Virus record (IMG/VR): IMGVR_UViG_3300031576_000183
Coordinates: 1-37,416 of that record
Direction: 5' to 3' (one strand)
Length of the DNA: 37,416 nucleotides
Source of the DNA: a virus
A program made the translations under genes and the position numbers. This document shows positions 24,208 through 37,416 of the stretch, piece by piece (the stretch's first letter is position 1; each line of letters begins with the position of its first letter). The notes under the pieces were generated by a model, which saw nothing but the letters and a program-made list of their open reading frames with translations, had not been told where the DNA came from and searched no databases.

Positions 24208-25899
24208 ATGGCTAGTGATAGGGTAAACCAGTTAAACTTTGTAAACTTTGATTTTGATGATTTAGTAGCTCAGCTATCGGATAGAGTGAAGTTAAGAGAT
24301 GCCTGGAAGGATACGTATCGTTCTTCGACAGGTCAGATGCTTATAGAGTTACATGCTTATGTTGCAAATTTGATTTTGTATTATATCGAACGTAGAGCTG
24401 AGGAGTCTTATTTAGGTACAGCTAAGAATCGTTCTTCGATTTTGAACTTAGTTAGGCTAATTAACTTTAAGCCAAAAAGGAAGACTTCGGCTAAGGGTAA
24501 GTTGGAGTTTTCTGTAGCAACCCCAGCTCCAAAGAAAATATTTGTTCCGAAATATACTGAGTGTAGATCAGTTGATGGATTTAAGTATTTGACCAATGAA
24601 GAAGTCGTGTTGAATGTTGGTCAGATAGAAGTTGAAGCTGATAGTATACAGGGAGAGCTTATAGAGACTGAGGTATCTTCGATAGGAGGAATAGCTCAAG
24701 AGTATAAAGTTGAAGATTCGAGTGTTGAGAATGAAAATGTGTTTGTATATGTTAATGACGTTGCTTGGACTAAGGTTGATGCGTTTTTAACTTCTACCAA
24801 TTTGGATGAGCATTATCAGATTAGGCATGAAATAGATGATAAGATTACGATTATTTTTGGAGATAATGTGTTTGGTAGAGCACCTTCGGTGGGAGACACG
24901 ATTAAGATTAGATATGTTAAGTCGGACGGTCTGCAGGGAAATGTTTTTGAATTAGATAGAGTTACAACGTTATCTGATTCTTTGTTTGATGAAGACGGAG
25001 ATCCGGTAAGTGTATCTGTTACGAATTCAGACTTCTTTTTGGGGGGGGATGATTCGGAGAGTAATGAAGAAATCAGGAATGAGGCTCCCAGGGTATTTGC
25101 AACAGGGGATAGGGCTGTAACTAGAAGTGACTTTATTGCTCTGATTGAGAATTTTGCAGGAGTAGCTAATGCGAATGTTTGGGGAGAGAATGAAGAGAGT
25201 CCACCGAACTTTTCGATGTTCAATAGGATTAAGCTTGTAGTCTTATTGCAGAACTTTGCTTTTCCATCAGCTACATTTGAGACAGAGTTAACTGATTTTC
25301 TCTTTACGAAGTCTATGATTACTGTGCGGTATTCGTTTGTAAATGCTGTGATTTTAGAAGTTATTCCAACGATGGATGTTAAAGTTTTGGCGGGAAAGTC
25401 ACTCTCTCAGGTTCAATCGGATATTGAAGATGCCGTAGGTTTGCAATTTGTTTTGGGAGAGACTACTAGAATAGGGCAGCATAAACGTCATTCGGATATA
25501 ATTGACATAGTTGAGGAAGTACCGGGAGTTTCATATTCGCATATTGTTTTAGAAATTAGAAAGAATATGGGGCCGGTTTTTGAAGGATTTGAATGGGGTG
25601 GGACATTAGATGCCCTACAAGTTAAAAAGAACTCTGTTAGAGTCTATGTAGATGGAGTAGCAATAGCTAAAGATGACGGCTCAGGTTTTTGGTTACCTAT
25701 TGGAGTTCCGGCTATTACAACGACAGGGGATATTAACTATGTTAATGGCAAGGTGCATTTGAACTTTGCTCCAGATGTATTGGTTACTAGTATAGTTACA
25801 GTTAGGTACCAGCAGGATGAAAATGGGGATATCGTACTTTTGAAAGAACAGATTTGTAGATTGGATTCGGTAGAGGTTACGGATATAGCCTATGAATAG
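24208..25899 (+). CDS. gp6: Baseplate wedge protein gp6/J-type
   Basis: The 563-residue product has the usual start of gpJ/gp6 proteins: GQMLIELHAYVANLILYYIE, RRAEESYLGTAKNRSSILNL and INFKPKRKTSA. Residues about 90-275 carry the central beta domain (IIFGDNVFGRAPSVGDTIKI, IRYVKSDGLQGNVF), and then GDRAVTRSDFIALIENFAGV and VEEVPGVSYSHIV. The wedge ring formed by this protein surrounds the hub and drives contraction. T4 gp6 has 660 residues. Confidence 0.9.
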   Translation: MASDRVNQLNFVNFDFDDLVAQLSDRVKLRDAWKDTYRSSTGQMLIELHAYVANLILYYIERRAEESYLGTAKNRSSILNLVRLINFKPKRKTSAKGKLEFSVATPAPKKIFVPKYTECRSVDGFKYLTNEEVVLNVGQIEVEADSIQGELIETEVSSIGGIAQEYKVEDSSVENENVFVYVNDVAWTKVDAFLTSTNLDEHYQIRHEIDDKITIIFGDNVFGRAPSVGDTIKIRYVKSDGLQGNVFELDRVTTLSDSLFDEDGDPVSVSVTNSDFFLGGDDSESNEEIRNEAPRVFATGDRAVTRSDFIALIENFAGVANANVWGENEESPPNFSMFNRIKLVVLLQNFAFPSATFETELTDFLFTKSMITVRYSFVNAVILEVIPTMDVKVLAGKSLSQVQSDIEDAVGLQFVLGETTRIGQHKRHSDIIDIVEEVPGVSYSHIVLEIRKNMGPVFEGFEWGGTLDALQVKKNSVRVYVDGVAIAKDDGSGFWLPIGVPAITTTGDINYVNGKVHLNFAPDVLVTSIVTVRYQQDENGDIVLLKEQICRLDSVEVTDIAYE

Positions 25900-25913: not shown

Positions 25914-26402
25914 ATGTTAATTAAGTGGGAAGGTTATTGGGATTTTGTACATGTTAGAAAAGGCAAAGTTATTTATGAAGCTAGAATGGTTAAAAATGCT
26001 TTAGTAGATCAGGGAGAGCAGTTGATACTTGATACTATTTTTAGGAATCAGGCCATTACCTCTCAGTTTTTTGTTGGACTAGCTAATGATGTAATTTCAG
26101 AAACAGATGGGTTATCGGATATAGCTGGAGAGCCCGGGGGTAATGGATATGCTAGGCAGGCTTTGAATAGGGATTTAACAGATTGGCCTATTTTAGTTTT
26201 GCATGAAGGGGATTATAGGACGGAATCGAAAGAAGTTGTCTTTGCAGCTTCTGGTGGGAGTATTGGTCCGATTAATTCAGCTTTTTTGTCTACAACATTG
26301 AATAACACAGGTAAGTTAGTTGCATTTATAACCCTCCCTTTAGTTAGAACTATTTTAGACGGGGATGAGGGGTTTGTGAAGGTAAGGATCAAAATAAAAT
26401 AA
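25914..26402 (+). CDS. Small virion structural protein
   Basis: The 162-residue product has GGAGGGG upstream. It includes NALVDQGEQLILDTIF, then FFVGLANDVISETDGLSDI and GGNGYARQALNRDL, an outline seen in phage structural proteins near fibre genes. A later gene at 32829 has a related layout (NEGINELW, then ARLAVGDSSAAES). Its stop overlaps the next start (TAATG). Function in baseplate or fibre attachment is inferred from context. Confidence 0.65.
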   Translation: MLIKWEGYWDFVHVRKGKVIYEARMVKNALVDQGEQLILDTIFRNQAITSQFFVGLANDVISETDGLSDIAGEPGGNGYARQALNRDLTDWPILVLHEGDYRTESKEVVFAASGGSIGPINSAFLSTTLNNTGKLVAFITLPLVRTILDGDEGFVKVRIKIK

Positions 26403-27661
26403 TGGCGACAGTTGATCTCTTGACATTGACTTTCGATACAGATTGGAGTTTTGATACTGCTGGTTTGTTTTTTGATATGCTCAATGAAACTCAGGCTGTG
26501 TTAGAAGGGGAGATGACTCTGTTTCCAGTTAGTATGCGGCTTAGGGCGCATATTCAGGCAGATGAGGATATTGTTTGGATAGATCAGGCTGATTTTACTT
26601 TGACTAAGTTTTTGGATCTTTTGCCACTTGTGCCAGAGGTATTTAGGTCTTCGGATGTACTGAAACAGTATTTAGAAGAAGTAGGGATATTTGACGGTAC
26701 GTATTTGAGTAACGTAGATGATTTACAGGCTATTTTGGATCCCCATGGAGTTGGGGAAGTGTTTTTATTGGAGTTGGCGAAGTTAATAGGGGTAGAAATA
26801 GTTAGAACAGAGACTACCCCTTTAGTTGAAATTCGTAGGCAGGTTACTCAAGCTATAGATTGGTATAAACGTAAGGGGTCTTATGAAGCTTTGCAGATCA
26901 TAGCGTACCTATCGAATTTAGGTGTACAATTGTTTGATTTGTATACTTCGGACTATATATCTTTTACTAGAGCTGAATGGTATGCGGGAGACGAAGGTAC
27001 GAATCCCCCGGGTATTCCGTCGAATTTTTTTAAGTCCGCTCATTTTGGATTAGAGATTAAGCTTAATAGGGTGTATACGGGTAGTACGTTTTTGTGGAAA
27101 GAGAATTTGTTTATCCCGATCCAGAGGCATGTTGAGTTAGTTAGGCCTGCAAATACAGTGCCTAGGTATATTATCTTTTTGAATCCGATTACAGATCAGA
27201 CGGGGTCGGTTATGGAGGTAGCTGGCTTTATTCGTACTAGAGTTATGGATACTTGGAGTTTTCCGCAATTGTTTTTTGATATGAATCTTTTGAGTCAGCC
27301 AGATTGGGATTTTGATGGGGGAGAAGCAGGAGAATTTTTTGATTTTACCGAAAACAATTTTATCAATGGCATAAATACGTTTAAGTTAGGTACGGGGAAT
27401 AAGGGAGTATCTCCAGGAGCTCCTCTCTTTGCTATTCAGACGCCGACTTTAGTTGGGTCAGTAGATGCTATTAGGATTTTGCCGAATAAAATGGAATTTG
27501 AAATTGTGATTCCTTCGGCTACAGTTTCATTAAGTTTGTCTGAGCTGGGTTTGTTCTCAAACGGGGGAACAGTTTTACGTGTAGCAAGTACGTTTCCGGA
27601 TATTGATAAGATTGCGGGAGTTGAATTAAGAATACTTGTTGAAGTCTTAAAAACCGTATAG
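26402..27661 (+). CDS. Tail protein I-like baseplate protein
   Basis: The 419-residue product carries the gpI-like block at about 75-185: LDLLPLVPEVFRSSDVLKQY, EVFLLELAKLIGVEI, and RRQVTQAIDWYKRKGSYEAL. This core is known from tail protein I of contractile phages, which joins the J-type wedge to the fibres. The C-terminal 200 residues are beta-rich and extend well beyond the usual gpI length. Position after J and before the fibre genes fits. Confidence 0.8.
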   Translation: MATVDLLTLTFDTDWSFDTAGLFFDMLNETQAVLEGEMTLFPVSMRLRAHIQADEDIVWIDQADFTLTKFLDLLPLVPEVFRSSDVLKQYLEEVGIFDGTYLSNVDDLQAILDPHGVGEVFLLELAKLIGVEIVRTETTPLVEIRRQVTQAIDWYKRKGSYEALQIIAYLSNLGVQLFDLYTSDYISFTRAEWYAGDEGTNPPGIPSNFFKSAHFGLEIKLNRVYTGSTFLWKENLFIPIQRHVELVRPANTVPRYIIFLNPITDQTGSVMEVAGFIRTRVMDTWSFPQLFFDMNLLSQPDWDFDGGEAGEFFDFTENNFINGINTFKLGTGNKGVSPGAPLFAIQTPTLVGSVDAIRILPNKMEFEIVIPSATVSLSLSELGLFSNGGTVLRVASTFPDIDKIAGVELRILVEVLKTV

Positions 27662-27670
27662 AGGTAGACA

Positions 27671-29173
27671 ATGGGTTCAACTAATTTTGGAAATCAGTTA
27701 ATATCAGTTCAGGTTTTAGATCCGGTAGTCTCTTCTGTAGTTAATAGAATTGCAGATACTGTTAGACGTTTAGGAATTTATGAGGGGTTCTATTTGACCA
27801 AGATAAATGACTCTACTGTTCAAGTGGGGATAGGACAAGCTGAGATTCAGTCTGGAAATGCTCAAGTAGATGGAACTCGTCGGCAAGTTGGAGTTAATTT
27901 TCAGTCTGTTCAGAATATAGCTGTTAGTTCTGTGGCTCCGACTATTGTTTTGAGGTACTTTTTTGAATCCACGTTGAATCATTTTGTAGATTTATTAGCT
28001 CTAGCTTCGAGTACTGTTGAAGAGGATGACATTGTTTTAGGAGAAGCGATATATGCGGGTTCAGTTTTGACTGGGTTTAATTATGCGACAAGGTCTGAAG
28101 TTGATACGATGGATAAGTTTTTGAAAGTTGAACCTTTGCCTTCTCCTGCAATGAAGGTAATTGTTAGGCAAGGAAGAGTTAATTATGGGGTTCGAAATTT
28201 TGATGTATTAACGCAAGAGTCTCTTACTTTTGTAGCCCCTTCGTTTTTTCCTAGAATAGATACACTTTTCGTTGATGTAGATGGTGTTGTGAAAGTCAAT
28301 ACAGGAGTTGAAGCACTTGTACCACTAGCTCCCGGGTATCAAGATCGAGTAGTTCTGGCCGAAGTTTCACTTTCAGTAGGTCAGACCCAGATTTTAGTTG
28401 CACACATAAAAGATGTTAGAAATTTTATTTCGGTAGGTATTTCATTTGGGGGAGGGATATCGGGACAGTCTTTGAATTTTAGAATGGCTGTTGCGGGTAT
28501 CTCCGGGACTACCGCTACTGTAACCGCAGAGCAGGTGTCTCTTAAGTCTTCGGATAACATCACTTTAGTAGTTAGTAATGTAAACTTGTCTTTGAATATT
28601 GATAACCCGGGGGCTAATGGGTTAGATGTTGGTGTAAAGGCAAATGATACGAAGTATTTTGTACATGTTATGTTTAATCCAACAGCCAATGTAATTGCGG
28701 GAATCCTGTCGCTATCTGCAACAAGTCCAACGCTTCCGGCAAATTTTATTTATAGCGAAGTTTTTTCGATGGTTAGGACAAACAGTAGTGGTCAGTTATT
28801 AGGAGCTAGACAGTTTGGGAGATATTACTATTGGAAAACTTGGGTTGAGATTGCTTCGGGTACCCCAGGTAATGTTTGGACAGCGATCAATGTCAGTAGT
28901 TATCATCCGTCAGCTATTTCTGAAATTAGCGTTGGCACAACGACTGTAGCAGGGACTGGAAATCGTATAGGCATTACGAATGACAATACAGTTGCAATTC
29001 CGAATTTCAGTTCAGATTTTTTTGGGGGTCAGTTGGGGAGTAGTAAGGACGCTTCTGCTGGGTATGAATCGAAGTGGTGGGAGTTTGAAATTCTAACAGC
29101 AGATATGTTATTTTGGAGATGCAGTGGTCAGCCAGGAAAGATTTTTTTGACTGGATTTATAGTTACAAAGTAG
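27671..29173 (+). CDS. Tail fibre protein, paralog A
   Basis: The 500-residue product begins STNFGNQLISVQVLDPVVS and is the first of three tandem paralogs. Shared landmarks are GIYEGFYLTKINDSTVQVG, YGVRNFDVLTQESLTFVAP, VAHIKDVRNF, GANGLDVGVKANDTKYFV and RYYYWKTW. The last part, from about residue 400, is the most different from the others (ISEISVGTTTVAGTGNR, WWEFEILTADMLFW), as expected for a receptor-binding tip. Attachment to the baseplate through the common N terminus is inferred. Confidence 0.75.
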   Translation: MGSTNFGNQLISVQVLDPVVSSVVNRIADTVRRLGIYEGFYLTKINDSTVQVGIGQAEIQSGNAQVDGTRRQVGVNFQSVQNIAVSSVAPTIVLRYFFESTLNHFVDLLALASSTVEEDDIVLGEAIYAGSVLTGFNYATRSEVDTMDKFLKVEPLPSPAMKVIVRQGRVNYGVRNFDVLTQESLTFVAPSFFPRIDTLFVDVDGVVKVNTGVEALVPLAPGYQDRVVLAEVSLSVGQTQILVAHIKDVRNFISVGISFGGGISGQSLNFRMAVAGISGTTATVTAEQVSLKSSDNITLVVSNVNLSLNIDNPGANGLDVGVKANDTKYFVHVMFNPTANVIAGILSLSATSPTLPANFIYSEVFSMVRTNSSGQLLGARQFGRYYYWKTWVEIASGTPGNVWTAINVSSYHPSAISEISVGTTTVAGTGNRIGITNDNTVAIPNFSSDFFGGQLGSSKDASAGYESKWWEFEILTADMLFWRCSGQPGKIFLTGFIVTK

Positions 29174-29180
29174 AGGGTCT

Positions 29181-30734
29181 ATGGGACAGATAAATTTTGG
29201 TAATCAAAAGAGTACGGTACATTTTTTCGATGCATTAGATTCCACTATAGTTGATAAGATTGGATTTACCCTTACGAATCTGGGTCAGAATATTCGTAAG
29301 GTGGGAATTTATGAGGGGGTGTGGCTAACGAAGATAAGCGATACTTCTGTTGAAGTGGGGAGTGGGGAGATTGAGATATTGTCAGAGAATAATCAACTAG
29401 ATGGGACAAAGCGCCAGATTAGAGTAGCCTTTCAGAATATAGAAACGTTAACAGTTAGTTCAGCAACTCCCTATGTGATACTTAGGTACACGTTTGCTGC
29501 GAGTTTGACGCATTATGTAGATATGTTTGCGGTAGCAGTTGGAAGTATTCAGGTTAATGACCTAGTTGTTGGTAGGGCTTTGTATTCAGGGCCAACGTTA
29601 ACTGGATTTGAGTATATTCTTAGGTCGGAGCCTTTGGTGTTTGATAAGTTTCTTAAGATCGAGCCCACTGTTGTGGCGTCTATGAAGCTTATTGTTAGGA
29701 AAGGTAGATTCAATTATGGCTTGCAGAATTTTGATGTATTTACGCAAGAGTCGCCGACTTTTGTAGCTCCGGGCGCACAGAGTAGGATAGATTTGTTGTA
29801 TTTGGATACAGATGGATTAGTTAAGATAAGTACGGGAGTTCAAGCCGCTAGTCCAGTTCCGCCTGAGTATGAAAGTAAGATTGTATTAGCTGAAGTCACG
29901 CTTTCAGCAGGGCAGACTCAGATTTTAGCTGCACACATAAAAGATGTTAGATCGTTTTTGTCTTCTGGATCAGCTTTTGTTACTTCTGGTGGGGGTGTTG
30001 CTGGACAGGCTACAAGATTTAAGCTATCGGTTGATGGGGTCGCTAGCAATACCGCTTTAATAACAGCTAAGATGGCGTCTTTGAGAAATTCAGATAATGC
30101 TGTCATTACTGTATCGAATGTAAACTTAGCTGTGAACATTATCACCAGTGGTTTGAATGGATTGGATACGGGAGTTCCGGCAGCTAATGCCAAGTATTTT
30201 GTTTGGATAGTATACAATCCAGTAACGACTGTGTTGGGAGGTTTAGTATCTGCTTCTTCGACAAGTCCTGTATTGCCAAGTGGATTTGTTTTTAAGGAGT
30301 TATTTTCAGTGCTTAGAACGGACAGTACGTCCCAGTTTTTGGGGGCAAAACATCATAACGGGGTTTACTACTGGAAAGATTGGCCGAAGCTAGTGGAATC
30401 TCTCAGTGTTCAGTTGTCGAATTGGACTGCAATAGATTTTAGTAGTTATACCTTTCCAGAAGTTGCTGGATCTTATTTTGGAAGTGCGTGTACATCGAAC
30501 TTACAGCGGGTATTGATTACGAATGACAATACAGTGCCGATTGCAGGTTCTGGTAATTTTAGTGCTCCGTTGAATGTAGTAGGCAATCAGTTTGGGCATG
30601 AGGAGCCAGGGCATTCGAATACTCATCAGGGATATTGGGAGTTGGAGTTAATTGTTCCGAATACGTTGTATTGGATTACTGGTCCAGGTGTTAGGGAGAC
30701 AGTTTTTCTACATGGTTTTAGGATAGCGAGGTAA
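29181..30734 (+). CDS. Tail fibre protein, paralog B
   Basis: The 517-residue product begins GQINFGNQKSTVHFFDALDS. It carries the shared blocks (KVGIYEGVWLTKISDTSVEV, YGLQNFDVFTQESPTFVAP, AAHIKDVRSFL, GLNGLDTGVPAANAKYFVW, YYWKDW), with eight extra residues near the N terminus relative to paralog A. The tip after about residue 415 is its own. It starts eight bases after paralog A. Confidence 0.75.
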   Translation: MGQINFGNQKSTVHFFDALDSTIVDKIGFTLTNLGQNIRKVGIYEGVWLTKISDTSVEVGSGEIEILSENNQLDGTKRQIRVAFQNIETLTVSSATPYVILRYTFAASLTHYVDMFAVAVGSIQVNDLVVGRALYSGPTLTGFEYILRSEPLVFDKFLKIEPTVVASMKLIVRKGRFNYGLQNFDVFTQESPTFVAPGAQSRIDLLYLDTDGLVKISTGVQAASPVPPEYESKIVLAEVTLSAGQTQILAAHIKDVRSFLSSGSAFVTSGGGVAGQATRFKLSVDGVASNTALITAKMASLRNSDNAVITVSNVNLAVNIITSGLNGLDTGVPAANAKYFVWIVYNPVTTVLGGLVSASSTSPVLPSGFVFKELFSVLRTDSTSQFLGAKHHNGVYYWKDWPKLVESLSVQLSNWTAIDFSSYTFPEVAGSYFGSACTSNLQRVLITNDNTVPIAGSGNFSAPLNVVGNQFGHEEPGHSNTHQGYWELELIVPNTLYWITGPGVRETVFLHGFRIAR

Positions 30735-30736
30735 GT

Positions 30737-32245
30737 ATGGGAACTACGAATTTTGGCAATCAGATCATTACAGTACAGTTTTTAGAACCAGGAAAGTCTG
30801 CTACGGTAAATAGAATTGCCCAAAATATTAGAAGAATAGGCATACATACTGGAGTTTTTTTGACCAAGATAAATGACTCTACTGTTCAAGTGGGGACGGG
30901 TAGAGTAGAGATATTGTCTAGCAACAATCAGTTAGATGGTACAAAAAGGCAGATCAATGTTGTATTTAGAGCAGTTCAGAATATTTCGTTAAGTTCAGCA
31001 ATTCCGTTTATTGTTTTGAGATATACGTTTGAATCTAATTCCACGCATTATGTAGATATGTTTGCTCTAGCTGAGGGTAGTATCCAAGTTAATGATCTAG
31101 TTGCTGGGAAAGCTGTATTTGTTGGATCCACGATAACGGGGTTTGATTATACTAATCGATCTGAGCCGGAAGTGTTTCATAACTATTTGTCTGTTGAACC
31201 GTTGTCTTCTCCAGGTATGCGGACAATTGTTAGAAAGGGCAGAACGAATTATGGGGTAGAGAATTTTGATGTGTTTTCTCAGGAGTCCCAGCTATTTACA
31301 CCGCCTCCGTCTCAGGCCAGGAAAGATTTAGTCTATGTTGATGTAGATGGGGCAGTAAAGGTTTCACAGGGGGCTATTGCTGCAGTTCCTGAAGCTCCGA
31401 GTTATCAGAATAAGGTCGTATTAGCAGAGGTGACTCTTAATGCTGGTCAGACTCAGATTACGTCTGCAAGTATAAAAGATGTAAGAAACTTTTTGTCTAC
31501 GGGTGTTTTAGCAGGAGGGGGAGTTTCGGGGCAGGCTAGAAATTTCAAGTTCGATGTAGCAGGAGTAGCTAGTAGTACCGCCACATTAACTGCAGATATG
31601 ATTTCGTTAAAGAATGTTGAAAATTCAGTTCTAGTTAAAACTAGTGCTTCGTTGAGTTTGAATATTACAACGTCGGGGGGAAATGGGTTAGATACTGGAG
31701 TAGTAGCTAATAATACTAAGTATTTTGTTTGGGTGATTTATAATCAAGCAACTGATGTATTAGCAGGATTGATTTCACTTTCTTCGACAAGCCCAGTATT
31801 GCCAAGTGGATTTACGTTTAGTGAATTGTATTCGTTTGTTAGGACGAATGGCAGTGGTCAGATGTTTGGTGCTAGGCATAGAGGTAAAAATTACTTTTGG
31901 AAAACTTGGTTTGATCTTGGGCTGTTTCCTGGTTTTGGTGCAGGTAGCCCACCTTTTTCATCTATTGCAGTTGGGGACTTTTATCCGTCTGAAATTAGTT
32001 TGGCGGTATTTGGGGCTACTGTTTCAGTTACAGGGGGTCAGTCGGCCAGTATGTCGAATAGAGGAGATCTAGTAGGGCCAAGTCATTTGGGTAGTACCCC
32101 GCCAAATATGTACTCGGCTTCGGAGGAGAGCGCAACTAATTGGAGAAGTTGGCATTGGGAATTTGAAGTTTTAACTGCAAATACGATATTTATTGCACTG
32201 GTCCATCAAGCAAAGGTGTTTTTTAGAGGGTTTAGATTCATGTAG
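30737..32245 (+). CDS. Tail fibre protein, paralog C
   Basis: The 502-residue product begins GTTNFGNQIITVQFLEPGKS. It has the same blocks (GIHTGVFLTKINDSTVQVG, YGVENFDVFSQESQLFTPP, SASIKDVRNFL, GGNGLDTGVVANNTKYFVW, NYFWKTW). Near 30860-30896 its DNA is identical over more than 35 bases to paralog A (27798-27834 region), a sign of recent copying or gene conversion. The tip differs and has a Gly/Pro-rich entry (GFGAGSPPFSS). Confidence 0.75.
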   Translation: MGTTNFGNQIITVQFLEPGKSATVNRIAQNIRRIGIHTGVFLTKINDSTVQVGTGRVEILSSNNQLDGTKRQINVVFRAVQNISLSSAIPFIVLRYTFESNSTHYVDMFALAEGSIQVNDLVAGKAVFVGSTITGFDYTNRSEPEVFHNYLSVEPLSSPGMRTIVRKGRTNYGVENFDVFSQESQLFTPPPSQARKDLVYVDVDGAVKVSQGAIAAVPEAPSYQNKVVLAEVTLNAGQTQITSASIKDVRNFLSTGVLAGGGVSGQARNFKFDVAGVASSTATLTADMISLKNVENSVLVKTSASLSLNITTSGGNGLDTGVVANNTKYFVWVIYNQATDVLAGLISLSSTSPVLPSGFTFSELYSFVRTNGSGQMFGARHRGKNYFWKTWFDLGLFPGFGAGSPPFSSIAVGDFYPSEISLAVFGATVSVTGGQSASMSNRGDLVGPSHLGSTPPNMYSASEESATNWRSWHWEFEVLTANTIFIALVHQAKVFFRGFRFM

Positions 32246-32690: not shown

Positions 32691-32845
32691 TGGATTTTGA
32701 AGATACTGTTTCAGTAGTTGTAGTGAAGCAAGTACAGAGTACAGGGGGTAGTCAAGAAACTATTCTTGGTTTAGGTGAGGATCGTTTATTAAATTTGTTA
32801 AATAAGTTAAGCTTAGGAGGAACTACGAATGGAAGTTCAAGATAA
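32690..32845 (+). CDS. Small hypothetical protein (51 residues)
   Basis: GTG 32690 overlaps the previous TAG. The product starts VDFEDTVSVVVVKQVQSTGG and runs to a helix (EDRLLNLLNKLSL). It overlaps the next gene by 17 bases and fills an otherwise empty 138-base gap. The weaker ribosome site makes it less certain. No family recognised. Confidence 0.4.
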   Translation: MDFEDTVSVVVVKQVQSTGGSQETILGLGEDRLLNLLNKLSLGGTTNGSSR

Positions 32846-33356
32846 AGTTATTGGGCATAAAATTTGGACGATCAAGCGTTGGGCATCGGTAGAAGATTTT
32901 AATGCTGGTCGTGTGTATTCGGAAGAGGAAGAACTGCAGTTAATGGGAATCTCTCAGGATTCTAAGTTTGAAGGAAACTTGTTGTTGAATGAGGGGATTA
33001 ACGAACTTTGGACTCTGGTCTGTTCAGGAGGAGGTACAAAGTTTGATAGTGCTAATGCAAGATTGGCTGTTGGAGATAGCTCGGCGGCAGAGTCTGCAGC
33101 CCATACTGGATTGCAGGCATCCACCAATAAGTTGTACAAAGCAATGGATGTGGGTTTCCCGACTTTTGGAACGTTACAGAAGGCGGTTTGGAGATCTACT
33201 TATGCTACTTCTGAGGCGAACTTTGCTTGGCAGGAGTTTACTGTTGCAAATGGAGGTTCAGATGCAGCAATTAACTTGAACAGGAAAGTTAGTAATCAGG
33301 GGACTAAGATAAGTGGGCAAGTGTGGCAACTTACGCTAGAGATCACACTTTCTTAA
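32829..33356 (+). CDS. Virion structural protein
   Basis: The 175-residue product has TTAGGAGGA upstream. It contains EGNLLLNEGINELWTLVCSG, FDSANARLAVGDSSAAESA and the end GTKISGQVWQLTLEITLS. This layout recurs in structural proteins of many phages and is shared in outline with the gene at 25914. Likely a beta-sandwich appendage or decoration protein. Followed by a 168-base stretch without a gene. Confidence 0.65.
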   Translation: MEVQDKVIGHKIWTIKRWASVEDFNAGRVYSEEEELQLMGISQDSKFEGNLLLNEGINELWTLVCSGGGTKFDSANARLAVGDSSAAESAAHTGLQASTNKLYKAMDVGFPTFGTLQKAVWRSTYATSEANFAWQEFTVANGGSDAAINLNRKVSNQGTKISGQVWQLTLEITLS

Positions 33357-33524: not shown

Positions 33525-35285
33525 TTGCCCTTTAGTGCAGTTTTAGATGAGAGAGGTCATAGAGTGTTCTTGGACTCTGTAAGCGATACAGGCCAGAAGG
33601 TTACTCAGTCTGATCGTTTGCTTGAGGACGGAACGTTTATTATATTTCATCTAGTTGAGATATCTGTAGCAGATACCAGCTCTGGAGTTGAATCGATTAA
33701 CGTAACCTTTTTGATTGAAGACTCGGGAACGTCGGTAGAAACTCCAGAGGTGTTTGCTACGTTAATGCAACAGGATACAGGGACAGATACTGAAGAGGTA
33801 AGTTTTCTCCAACAGATACCTGTATTTGATGTTGTTTTTGGTCTGGATAGAGCAGGAATTCTGATTGATGTGTTGGATTCCGGGACTGCTACTGATTTGG
33901 CTTTTGTTCTAAACACTTTTGTACAAACAGATGTAGGGCTAGGTTCTGAATTTGTCAGTGTGTTGTCTACTGTTTTGCAATTAGATGCGGGATCGGGCTC
34001 AGAGTTAGTATCGTTTATTGAAATAGTTTTGATAGATGTAGCAGATTCTGGGGCGGTAGTTTCTGAAACTTTAGCAATTATTGCTCAGGTTCTAGCTCAG
34101 GATGTCACTTTAGCAGTTGATTTGATATCCGTGTTGGCAATTGTAAGTGAAACAGATGTAGGGGTAGGAGTTGATTTAGTATCAGTTTTAGTTGCCATAT
34201 TGGCTGAAGACGCTGGTGTGGCTATTGAATTAGTTTCAGTTTTGAATGCCCTTAGAGTTTTAGAGGCGGGATTGTTAATAGAAGCAATTGCAATAGTTAA
34301 TGAGTTTGTGCTGCAAGATGTTTCGGCTGCAGTAGATTTAGTTGATATTTTAGCCCAAATAGATTTGCAGGATACGGGAGTAGTTTCAGAGTTTTTGGAA
34401 GTAGCTAATCGTTTGGTTGTTGCAGATGTAGGAGCTGCAATTGACTTTGTTCAGATAGACTTCCCGCCAGTGTTCAATCAAGATATTTTAGATTCCGGGA
34501 CAGATACTGAATTGTTAGATATTATGACAACACTTTTGCAGGAGGATTCGGGATTAGCTGTAGATTTTGTTGAAATTTTAGCGACTATGATGGAGGCGGA
34601 TTCGGGGGCGGGATCAGATCTAATATTAGTTTTGGCTCAAATTCTAGCTGAAGACAGTGGTTCTGTAATAGAGTTTGTAAGTATAGTTAATTCGCTGTTG
34701 ATATTAGATGATGCAATAGCTTCTGAATTTATTCCATTTTTTGCTGTAGTAGGGACACAAGATGTAGGAGTAGCAATTGAGTTAGTGTCCTATGTTAGAT
34801 TATTGTTGTTAGAAGATTCTGGATTAGCTGTGGAGTTTCTAAGCTTTTTGATTCTAGTAGCTGAAACTGATATAACTTTAGCAGTAGATTTAGCTGAGGT
34901 TATAGTTGTGACGCCTATTTTAGTAGAAGATTCAGGTCTGTTTTCAGATTTTGTTAGTCTTTTAGTTGCCATATTGCAATTGGATTCGGGTGTTGTTTCA
35001 GAGTTCTTGTCTGAGTTTGTAACTTTGACAGTAGCTGATAATAGGTTAGGGTTGGATATTGTTAAGTTGTTAGTTACTTTGACGGTTGAGGATACTGGGA
35101 TTGAGTTATTAGAAACGGTATTTTCAAAAGAGATTTTGAAGAAGACGTTGTTTTTGATTTCGAAGTTTGCTGGGGCTATAGTTTTGGAGAGTTTCTTACC
35201 TGTAGCTTGTAGTTTGTTTTTGCGATCTGAAGTTAGAACAGATATAAGATTAGATAGTTTTCTAGAAGTTAACTTAGGGGATTAG
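33525..35285 (+). CDS. 18-residue-repeat structural protein
   Basis: TTG 33525 is the chosen start because GAGGAGA lies seven bases upstream; no ATG fits. The 586-residue product begins PFSAVLDERGHRVFLD and from about residue 66 to 530 consists of some 26 repeats, nearly all exactly 18 residues, each starting D-S/V/T/A-G-x-x-x-E/D-F/L-V-S and ending in hydrophobics (for example DSGLAVDFVEILATMMEA). The protein has no Lys between K25 and K513 and no Cys before 562. The last 55 residues are different, basic and hydrophobic (KEILKKTLFLISKFAG). A repetitive beta or helical fibre is likely; the family is not certain. Confidence 0.7.
   Translation: MPFSAVLDERGHRVFLDSVSDTGQKVTQSDRLLEDGTFIIFHLVEISVADTSSGVESINVTFLIEDSGTSVETPEVFATLMQQDTGTDTEEVSFLQQIPVFDVVFGLDRAGILIDVLDSGTATDLAFVLNTFVQTDVGLGSEFVSVLSTVLQLDAGSGSELVSFIEIVLIDVADSGAVVSETLAIIAQVLAQDVTLAVDLISVLAIVSETDVGVGVDLVSVLVAILAEDAGVAIELVSVLNALRVLEAGLLIEAIAIVNEFVLQDVSAAVDLVDILAQIDLQDTGVVSEFLEVANRLVVADVGAAIDFVQIDFPPVFNQDILDSGTDTELLDIMTTLLQEDSGLAVDFVEILATMMEADSGAGSDLILVLAQILAEDSGSVIEFVSIVNSLLILDDAIASEFIPFFAVVGTQDVGVAIELVSYVRLLLLEDSGLAVEFLSFLILVAETDITLAVDLAEVIVVTPILVEDSGLFSDFVSLLVAILQLDSGVVSEFLSEFVTLTVADNRLGLDIVKLLVTLTVEDTGIELLETVFSKEILKKTLFLISKFAGAIVLESFLPVACSLFLRSEVRTDIRLDSFLEVNLGD
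33720..35114 (+). repeat. Coding 54-nt (18-residue) repeat array
   Basis: About 26 units follow a period of 18 codons. Asp anchors fall at residues 66, 84, 118, 136, 154, 174, 193, 211, 229, 265, 283, 301, 323, 341, 359, 377, 395, 413, 431, 449, 469, 487, 505 and 523, with a Glu at 247; occasional units are 19, 20 or 22 long. DNA copies are clearly diverged, so the array is old or under protein-level selection and is not a recent expansion. Confidence 0.75.
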
Positions 35286-35286
35286 T

Positions 35287-35601
35287 ATGCCTGAGATAAG
35301 CAATTCGTCGGATAAACATTATGTTGGTGAAGTTGGTACAGAAGTCATCGTAGATACCGATAAAGTTTTAACTGGTGCTCTATTTACGAATTTGAAAGTT
35401 AGAAAACCAGATGGAGTTGAAGTTGAGTGGATAGGAGTTATTTATACTTTAGATGGAGTACAAAAGGCAATTAGATATGTGACGGTAACAGGAGATTTTG
35501 ATCAACACGGTGTCTATGAGTTACAGGCACATGTTTCGTTGGGGTCTTTTGATGGGTTTGGTAGAACGGCTAGATTTGTAATTTTTAAGAAGTATTCGTA
35601 A
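35287..35601 (+). CDS. Small beta-sandwich virion protein
   Basis: The 104-residue product reads VGEVGTEVIVDTDKVLTGAL, NLKVRKPDGVEVEW, then IRYVTVTGDFDQHGVYELQA and ends with RFVIFKKYS. This is a compact Ig-like outline found in small structural genes beside phage fibre genes. It begins one base after the repeat protein's stop. A role in baseplate or fibre is inferred. Confidence 0.65.
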   Translation: MPEISNSSDKHYVGEVGTEVIVDTDKVLTGALFTNLKVRKPDGVEVEWIGVIYTLDGVQKAIRYVTVTGDFDQHGVYELQAHVSLGSFDGFGRTARFVIFKKYS

Positions 35602-35612
35602 GGAGGTTAGCA

Positions 35613-35897
35613 ATGGCTTTAGGAGATGTACAAAGTACAATTGCATCTGTTGCAAATAATAGTTTTTTAAATGTTCAGCCAGGAGCAGGAGTGGAGTGGG
35701 TAATCCATAACTTTCATCACGCGGGAGGGGCTGAGTTACAGTTTTTTGATGGTACGAATTTCATTTTGTTGGATACTGATACTGAAGGAGGGGTATGGTC
35801 TGGAGCTTTTCATGTTACCAATTTGGTGTATTATCGGGTTAAGAATACTTCCGGGGGTACTGTCAATCTGGGATATGATGGAGTTCAGACGAAATAG
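35613..35897 (+). CDS. Small beta-rich virion protein
   Basis: AAGGAGG precedes the ATG by six bases. The 94-residue product is beta-rich (GVEWVIHNFHHAGGAELQFF, VYYRVKNTSGGTVNLGYDG), of the small jelly-roll-like kind found in phage appendage clusters. No named family is recognised. Confidence 0.6.
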   Translation: MALGDVQSTIASVANNSFLNVQPGAGVEWVIHNFHHAGGAELQFFDGTNFILLDTDTEGGVWSGAFHVTNLVYYRVKNTSGGTVNLGYDGVQTK

Positions 35898-36701: not shown

Positions 36702-36710
36702 GAGTAGTTG

Positions 36711-37416
36711 ATGTTATACCGTATAGGTGTTTCAGAAGTTGCTGTAACGACAGGGGATATCTCTATTGGTGCAGTAGAGATTAAGGATGCCAATACAGAT
36801 GATCGTGTTGCAGTAAGTACCTTCGGAGAGATGCTTGTTGAAGTTTCACAAGGTAGAGTAGATGATTCGCCGTTTACGGTAGGGGTATTTGAAGTTTTGC
36901 CAATAGGTGCATTAGCTGATGAAACAGCTCCAGATTCAGTCAATGAAGGAGATATTGGTATTCCCAGAATGACTCTTGATAGAAAGCTCTTGGTTAGATT
37001 GGTAGGAGCTAATGATAGTCATAGGGCAGATGTTGATAGCTCCGGGAATTTAAGTATTGTTTCTGCTCCTAATGGTGGAGTTGATATAGGGGATGTAACG
37101 ATTAACAATACTGGAGGAGCAGGGGCAGTTAATATTCAAGACGGCGGGAATTCTATAACCGTTGACATTACAGAAGCTAAAGTTGATGATTCTGTTTTTG
37201 TAGTTGAAGTTGATAAAGTCTTTCCTATGGGAGCATTGGCTGATGAAACAGCTCCAGATTCAGTCAATGAAGGAGATATTGGTATTCCTAGAATGACTCT
37301 TGATAGAAAGCTCTTGGTTAGATTGGTAGGAGCTAATGATAGTCATAGGGCAGATGTTGATAGCTCCGGGAATTTAAGTATTGTTTCTGCTCCTAATGGT
37401 GGAGTTGATATAGGGG
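36711..37416 (+). CDS. Repeat-containing virion protein, cut by window end
   Basis: ATG 36711 with AGGAG upstream starts MLYRIGVSEVAVTTGDISIG; the frame is open to the window end, so at least 235 residues are present. A unit of 108 residues begins to repeat: GALADETAPDSVNEGDIGIP, RMTLDRKLLVRLVGANDS and VDSSGNLSIVSAPNGGVDIG occur twice. Such repeats occur in phage structural proteins. The role, perhaps an extended fibre or decoration, is inferred. Confidence 0.7.
   Translation, partial: MLYRIGVSEVAVTTGDISIGAVEIKDANTDDRVAVSTFGEMLVEVSQGRVDDSPFTVGVFEVLPIGALADETAPDSVNEGDIGIPRMTLDRKLLVRLVGANDSHRADVDSSGNLSIVSAPNGGVDIGDVTINNTGGAGAVNIQDGGNSITVDITEAKVDDSVFVVEVDKVFPMGALADETAPDSVNEGDIGIPRMTLDRKLLVRLVGANDSHRADVDSSGNLSIVSAPNGGVDIG
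36909..37092 (+). repeat. 184-bp repeat, copy 1
   Basis: Copy 1 is repeated 324 bases downstream with only two differences that I count in 184 bases (A/G at about 36914, C/T at about 36965). Both copies lie in one reading frame, and the spacing is 108 codons. Confidence 0.9.
37233..37416 (+). repeat. 184-bp repeat, copy 2 (reaches window end)
   Basis: Copy 2 runs to the last base of the window, so its full length and the number of further copies are unknown. Near identity to copy 1 points to recent duplication or ongoing gene conversion. Confidence 0.9.

Follow-up and report, generated by a model that had tools for sequence, protein, structure and literature searches.

Downstream of the baseplate genes of what reads as a contractile-tailed phage lies a gene encoding a long array of Asp-led, 18-residue repeats, and the question raised by this locus is what such a protein does for the virus and whether it has relatives elsewhere. 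The window analysed here is the whole 37,416-nucleotide stretch (positions 1–37416) of IMG/VR virus record IMGVR_UViG_3300031576_000183, a fragmentary record. Upstream of the repeat gene, PHROG matches, all on the + strand, include a head protease, the major head protein, the contractile sheath, the hub and the baseplate wedge; judged by this gene content, the window is a myophage late region. From the wedge, the gene order continues through three paralogous fibre-like proteins (27671–32245) and a phrog_23653 homologue to the repeat gene, with the following features at the locus.

24208..25899, + strand: baseplate wedge (J-like), used as the query for finding kin phages
26402..27661, + strand: protein encoded beside the baseplate wedge; in kin phage L155 the orthologue carries two canonical 18-residue units
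32829..33356, + strand: phrog_23653 homologue (8e-49), a neighbour kept beside 18-residue repeat genes in other phages
33525..35285, + strand: 18-residue repeat protein, whole gene (586 aa), with the reading frame where it was first noted
33525..33719, + strand: N-terminal 65 residues of the repeat protein, with LLEDGTFII inside, aligned to the N-terminus of the repeat protein of relative L007 (TDGLLEDGRIIITVTV)
33720..35144, + strand: array of ~26 Asp-led units, residues 66–540, mostly of 18 residues (from autocorrelation and the unit table)
35145..35282, + strand: C-terminus of the repeat protein, non-repeat, containing Lys and Arg
35287..35601, + strand: 104-aa cassette gene, with no family match and no homologue found in the loci
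35613..35897, + strand: 94-aa cassette gene, with homologues (45–54%) close to the repeat gene of L007, L008 and L044–L046

The repeat gene has a TTG start and a GGAG-type Shine-Dalgarno sequence (tagaggagatacgcTTG), and 2 bases separate its stop from the start of the next gene. No recognisable receptor-binding domain was found in the C-terminus of its product. Over the whole contig the GC skew is strong (0.2–0.4), and the main genes all lie on the + strand. The fibre-like tandem paralogues, of ~500 aa each (27671–29173, 29181–30734 and 30737–32245), all begin with MG.(T/I)NFGNQ and are also present in kin phages. At 36708–37416, a reading frame runs off the contig end and holds a long DNA repeat in nearly identical copies, from ~36895 and from ~37240, coding ALADETAPDSVNEGDIGIPRMTLDRKLLVRLVGAND; the contig end probably falls inside a repeat array.

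To describe the array, we compared residue identity at each lag with that of shuffled sequences, which gave 0.242 at lag 18 against a shuffle maximum of 0.156 (2,000 shuffles, all lags 5–59), and the autocorrelation of D, G and hydrophobic residues peaked at 18, 36 and 54. Units start at residues 66, 84, 102 (weak), 118, 136, 154, 174, 193, 211, 229, 247, 265 and 283 in the first half and at 301, 323, 341, 359, 377, 395, 413, 431, 449, 469, 487, 505 and 523 in the second. The original prediction of about 26 Asp-led units with a strict 18-residue period was borne out in the count and the Asp lead, but ‘strict’ is slightly overstated, since 20 of the 25 spacings are exactly 18 and the remaining five are 16, 20, 19, 22 and 20. 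The unit consensus reads D-[SVTA]-G-[LV]-A-[VI]-[ED]-[LF]-V-S-[VI]-L-x-x-L-L-x-x, with Asp at position 1 in 23/24 units of the window unit table, Gly at position 3 in 19/24 and an acidic residue (D/E) at position 7 in 23/24. DNA identity between units is low (mean 45%), with codon position 2 the most and position 3 the least conserved, indicating that the period is kept at the protein level, with no recent tandem expansion.

The repeat protein had no significant Pfam, NCBIfam, PHROG or PDB-sequence match, a protein scan of IMG/VR returned no close relative, a DNA pattern for the window variant gave only chance matches (out of frame or unrelated), and full-text searches of the open-access literature did not find the repeat described. 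A search for the repeat in other phage proteins, as had been proposed, succeeded by way of the neighbouring phrog_23653, whose relatives led to a clearer, canonical form of the unit, DSGxGxD-x11, which occurs in dozens of phage proteins. This canonical unit consists of D-S-G-x-G-x-D followed by 11 residues, with hydrophobic residues at positions 9, 11, 13, 15 and 17, and its DNA pattern found 41 IMG/VR stretches, with arrays in 33 distinct ones. The L007 repeat protein aligns with the window protein from the N-terminus, including the LLEDG motif, through the array. Among named phages, the unit is present in Rhodococcus phage REQ1, in Madraxi and in several mycobacteriophages, where the proteins are mostly annotated as minor tail or tail proteins. 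A scan of GTDB with the pattern yielded mostly unrelated, low-complexity DSGxxx hexapeptides; one DSGxGxD 18-residue array (L102:290–667) lies on a contig assigned to an Archaeoglobi genome and could belong to an archaeal virus or a surface protein. Unit lengths in the repeat reading frames of L057, L076, L084, L047 and L085 often lie 2 residues apart (16/18/20), as if strand alternation were preserved, and the proteins of L023, L075 and L078 mix 18- and 19-residue units.

We compared the window protein with minor tail proteins of mycobacteriophages and Rhodococcus phages, namely Willsammy gp22 (phrog_416), prophi91-4 gp73, REQ1 Orf64 and Madraxi gp8. All share arrays of the DSGxGxD unit (period 17–19), a tail or late gene context and an acidic, Lys-poor make-up. 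The minor tail proteins, however, have fewer units, of the canonical Gly-, Ser- and Thr-rich kind, joined to glycine-rich or LamG-like domains, whereas the window protein lacks such domains and its units are far more hydrophobic. Canonical arrays of many relatives also match PHROG 1696, ‘major tail protein’, at positions ~1690–1830 (4e-4 to 8e-18), with the rest of the 2,079-position profile absent; no profile match of the window protein itself to phrog_1696 or phrog_416 was found. A further profile match, to 9e5c (a LIM-named protein), involves an Ala/Glu/Thr-rich, 18-residue-like repeat and was judged compositional. With the group, the window protein shares the period of 18, Asp at position 1, Gly at position 3, the acidic position 7 and a phrog_23653 neighbour in a tail module. 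As Gly at position 5 is mostly lost, we file it as a divergent variant and not as a canonical member, and we note that a match between repeats is a match between short motifs, which convergence can also produce.

The comparison with relatives also places the unusual composition in context. Lys was predicted to be missing from most of the protein and Arg to be scarce, and indeed Lys occurs only at residue 25 and from 514 on, with Arg in the array at 109, 244, 296, 425 and 507. Lys is absent, too, from 16 of 51 arrays of relatives, in which K+R averages 2.2%, so that the shortage of Lys and the richness in acidic residues characterise the repeat group as a whole and are not special to the window protein. 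Distinctive in the window copy are its high hydrophobicity, with 46% strongly hydrophobic residues (Val/Ile/Leu/Met/Phe) against a mean of 26% in relatives and half the usual Gly, and its eroded loop, in which the second glycine is mostly lost: position 5 is Gly in 5/24 window units (mostly Ala/Val otherwise) versus 233/256 units of relatives.

The genomic neighbourhood links the repeat to a cassette. The phrog_23653 homologue has 33 relatives in IMG/VR, often with an 18-residue Asp-led repeat reading frame nearby; conversely, 17 of the 33 loci found by the repeat DNA pattern contain a phrog_23653-like reading frame on the same strand, and many of the contigs end just upstream. No such reading frame was seen in any of 25 bacterial and archaeal loci with a similar pattern, most of which hold unrelated 6-residue repeats. 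In the relatives, arrays are fused to lectin-like, beta-helix, glycine-rich, polysaccharide-lyase-like (below cut-off) and DUF7483 domains. In L010 (9523–10119), the place behind phrog_23653 and a beta-helix-like domain is taken by a different 18-residue array (DSISLSD-x11), which may be a sister repeat type. SP-15 and LIS04 were considered as further cassettes and rejected; phrog_23653 is present in both, but the genes directly after it are not 18-residue arrays. Listeria phage LIS04 (L037:21683–28456) has a giant pectin-lyase-like gene with degenerate Asp-led units at a spacing of 16–18.

Next to this stands the distribution among close kin. A search with the baseplate wedge identified 38 kin phages. 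Many of them also have the fibre paralogues downstream, but in the DNA examined, which covers the full 10 kb downstream in 13, neither phrog_23653 nor the repeat gene nor either of the two genes behind it was present. Absence from kin together with presence in distant phages indicates a cassette that is variable between kin and common to distant phages. In one kin phage, L155, the gene directly downstream of the wedge encodes an orthologue (E 2e-29) of the window protein at 26402–27661 to which an N-terminal domain is added, with two canonical units placed between the two parts. Of all the observations, this arrangement speaks most directly for a role of the unit as a baseplate spacer. A Tail_P2_I identity for the L155 protein was a by-eye reading without Pfam support and was dropped.

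The repeat gene is best read as part of an exchangeable cassette and as encoding a modular stalk of the tail fibre or baseplate. Its product, with ~26 short repeats, belongs to an as yet uncatalogued group of tail repeats with the 18-residue DSGxGxD unit, which moves as a cassette with phrog_23653, and we consider it rather likely that this product is a structural stalk or spacer of the phage tail. Expressed together with the late tail genes, the protein would be incorporated into the virion, mounted near the baseplate or the tail fibres, where a rod-shaped stalk would keep host-contacting parts at a distance from the tail. Each unit has a conserved Asp-Ser-Gly turn followed by ~12 hydrophobic-patterned residues, a pattern that in most relatives reads as one beta strand per unit, which may stack into a rod. 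If the array is a solenoid, a rise of ~0.48 nm per unit would make it ~12 nm long. The same gene could instead be moron-like, its product no virion part but a protein that the infected host secretes or displays on its surface, as the array on the contig assigned to an archaeal genome (L102) would allow; given the conserved place among tail genes and the many phages in which the array is joined to tail or adhesin domains, we regard this as extremely unlikely.

Turning to the fold, the original prediction of a uniform rod or solenoid remains the best-supported class, in line with the tail context, the annotated relatives and solenoid-like models, although the rod is predicted at low confidence (pLDDT 62–69). 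AlphaFold predictions of single chains gave beta-solenoid-like strands, one per unit, both for seven window units with 47 in-register fragments (pLDDT 62.5, pTM 0.47) and for a canonical relative (pLDDT 69, pTM 0.61), with variation between models. Structural comparison with VIA-align listed beta-solenoids and rolls (SufB/SufD, CsgA, FapC, RTX) at Z up to 7.8, which is the usual level for unmatched models. The low-confidence models and the acidic, Lys-poor make-up would also suit a flexible or disordered acidic spacer with no regular fold. Unlike a disordered linker, however, the array has conserved turn positions, is low in Gly and Pro and arranges its strongly hydrophobic residues (46%) regularly, making such a spacer very unlikely. 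A more serious alternative, which keeps the tail-stalk role, is that each unit forms a 13–14-residue amphipathic helix capped by the Asp-Ser-Gly turn, giving a helical repeat rod. In the window array, the unit average is hydrophobic at positions 8, 9, 11, 12, 15 and 16 and mostly polar at 7, 10, 13–14 and 17–18, and its hydrophobic moment is highest at 105 degrees (column-permutation p 0.034) versus 155–175 degrees in most relatives; the acidic position 7 and the Ser/Asp before Gly would fit a helix start. Nevertheless, the AlphaFold models with the window query show strands throughout, though the alignment of relatives had a beta pattern, beta-branched Val/Ile are rich at positions 6, 9 and 11, Pro occurs mid-unit (residues 74 and 404), the propensities for helix and strand come out equal (1.13 and 1.14), and a fold switch among homologues is rare. 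While the hydrophobic pattern of the window copy alone leans helical, its family membership favours the strand, and we hold the helical rod to be plausible but rather unlikely.

A similarity to calcium-binding RTX repeats had been suggested as well, with the RTX loop itself said to be absent. The array indeed lacks GGxGxDxUx twice per 18 residues, yet xGxGxD/E loops do occur in some units (DVGLGSE, DAGSGSE, DVGVGVD and DSGAGSD), and in relatives such a loop is the rule. Their D-S-G-x-G-x-D-x-h-x-h, once per 18 (or 19) residues, resembles one half-turn of an RTX roll, in which 18 residues make one turn; compared with RTX nonapeptide repeats (GGxGxDxUx), the group has a single loop in every 18 residues, lacks the second GGxGxD and gives no profile match. 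A one-sided roll of this kind is published for region IV of the Marinomonas primoryensis ice-binding protein (3p4g), with xGTGND-xUxU-... and 19 residues per turn (PMC6891781), and canonical relatives likewise have an acidic xGxGxD turn per 18–19 residues, then alternating hydrophobics. The array could accordingly be a one-sided, Ca-binding, RTX-like beta-roll that folds upon Ca outside the cell. A phmmer match of relative L061 to 3p4g at 8e-9 points this way, as do weak matches of the solenoid-like models to RTX rolls (Z 3.2–3.7), in a listing that does not include 3p4g itself. With many relatives, however, reversed 3p4g reaches an equal or better score, since the motif reads almost alike in both directions; the match is therefore no evidence of descent, and homology to the ice-binding protein was rejected. 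Moreover, none of 47 fragments matched an RTX Pfam family, and the window copy has no 3p4g match (~4 bits) and lacks the Ca-binding glycines; Gly5 is gone from most of its units, and in half of them Glu replaces Asp7. We consider an RTX-like roll distinctly unlikely for the window protein, whose loop carries Leu/Val/Ala/Ile; if the relatives bind Ca, the window copy probably does not. Speculatively, phage tails might carry undescribed repeat rods with one loop per 18 residues, akin in design to one-sided Ca-bound RTX rolls, with the metal site traded in the window lineage for hydrophobic packing, perhaps through a strand-to-helix shift in a homologous repeat, although we give this idea little credence.

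The 18-residue unit recurs in the tail genes of very different phages, yet has no Pfam, NCBIfam or PDB match, and recognising it could at once give many hypothetical and minor tail proteins a name as repeat stalks. The group provides a test case for Ca-dependent versus metal-free rods in phage fibres, and for the drift of a repeat whose period is kept. Repeat-built tail spacers are a known kind of protein, and the window protein is a divergent representative of a repeat group that is widespread yet uncatalogued.
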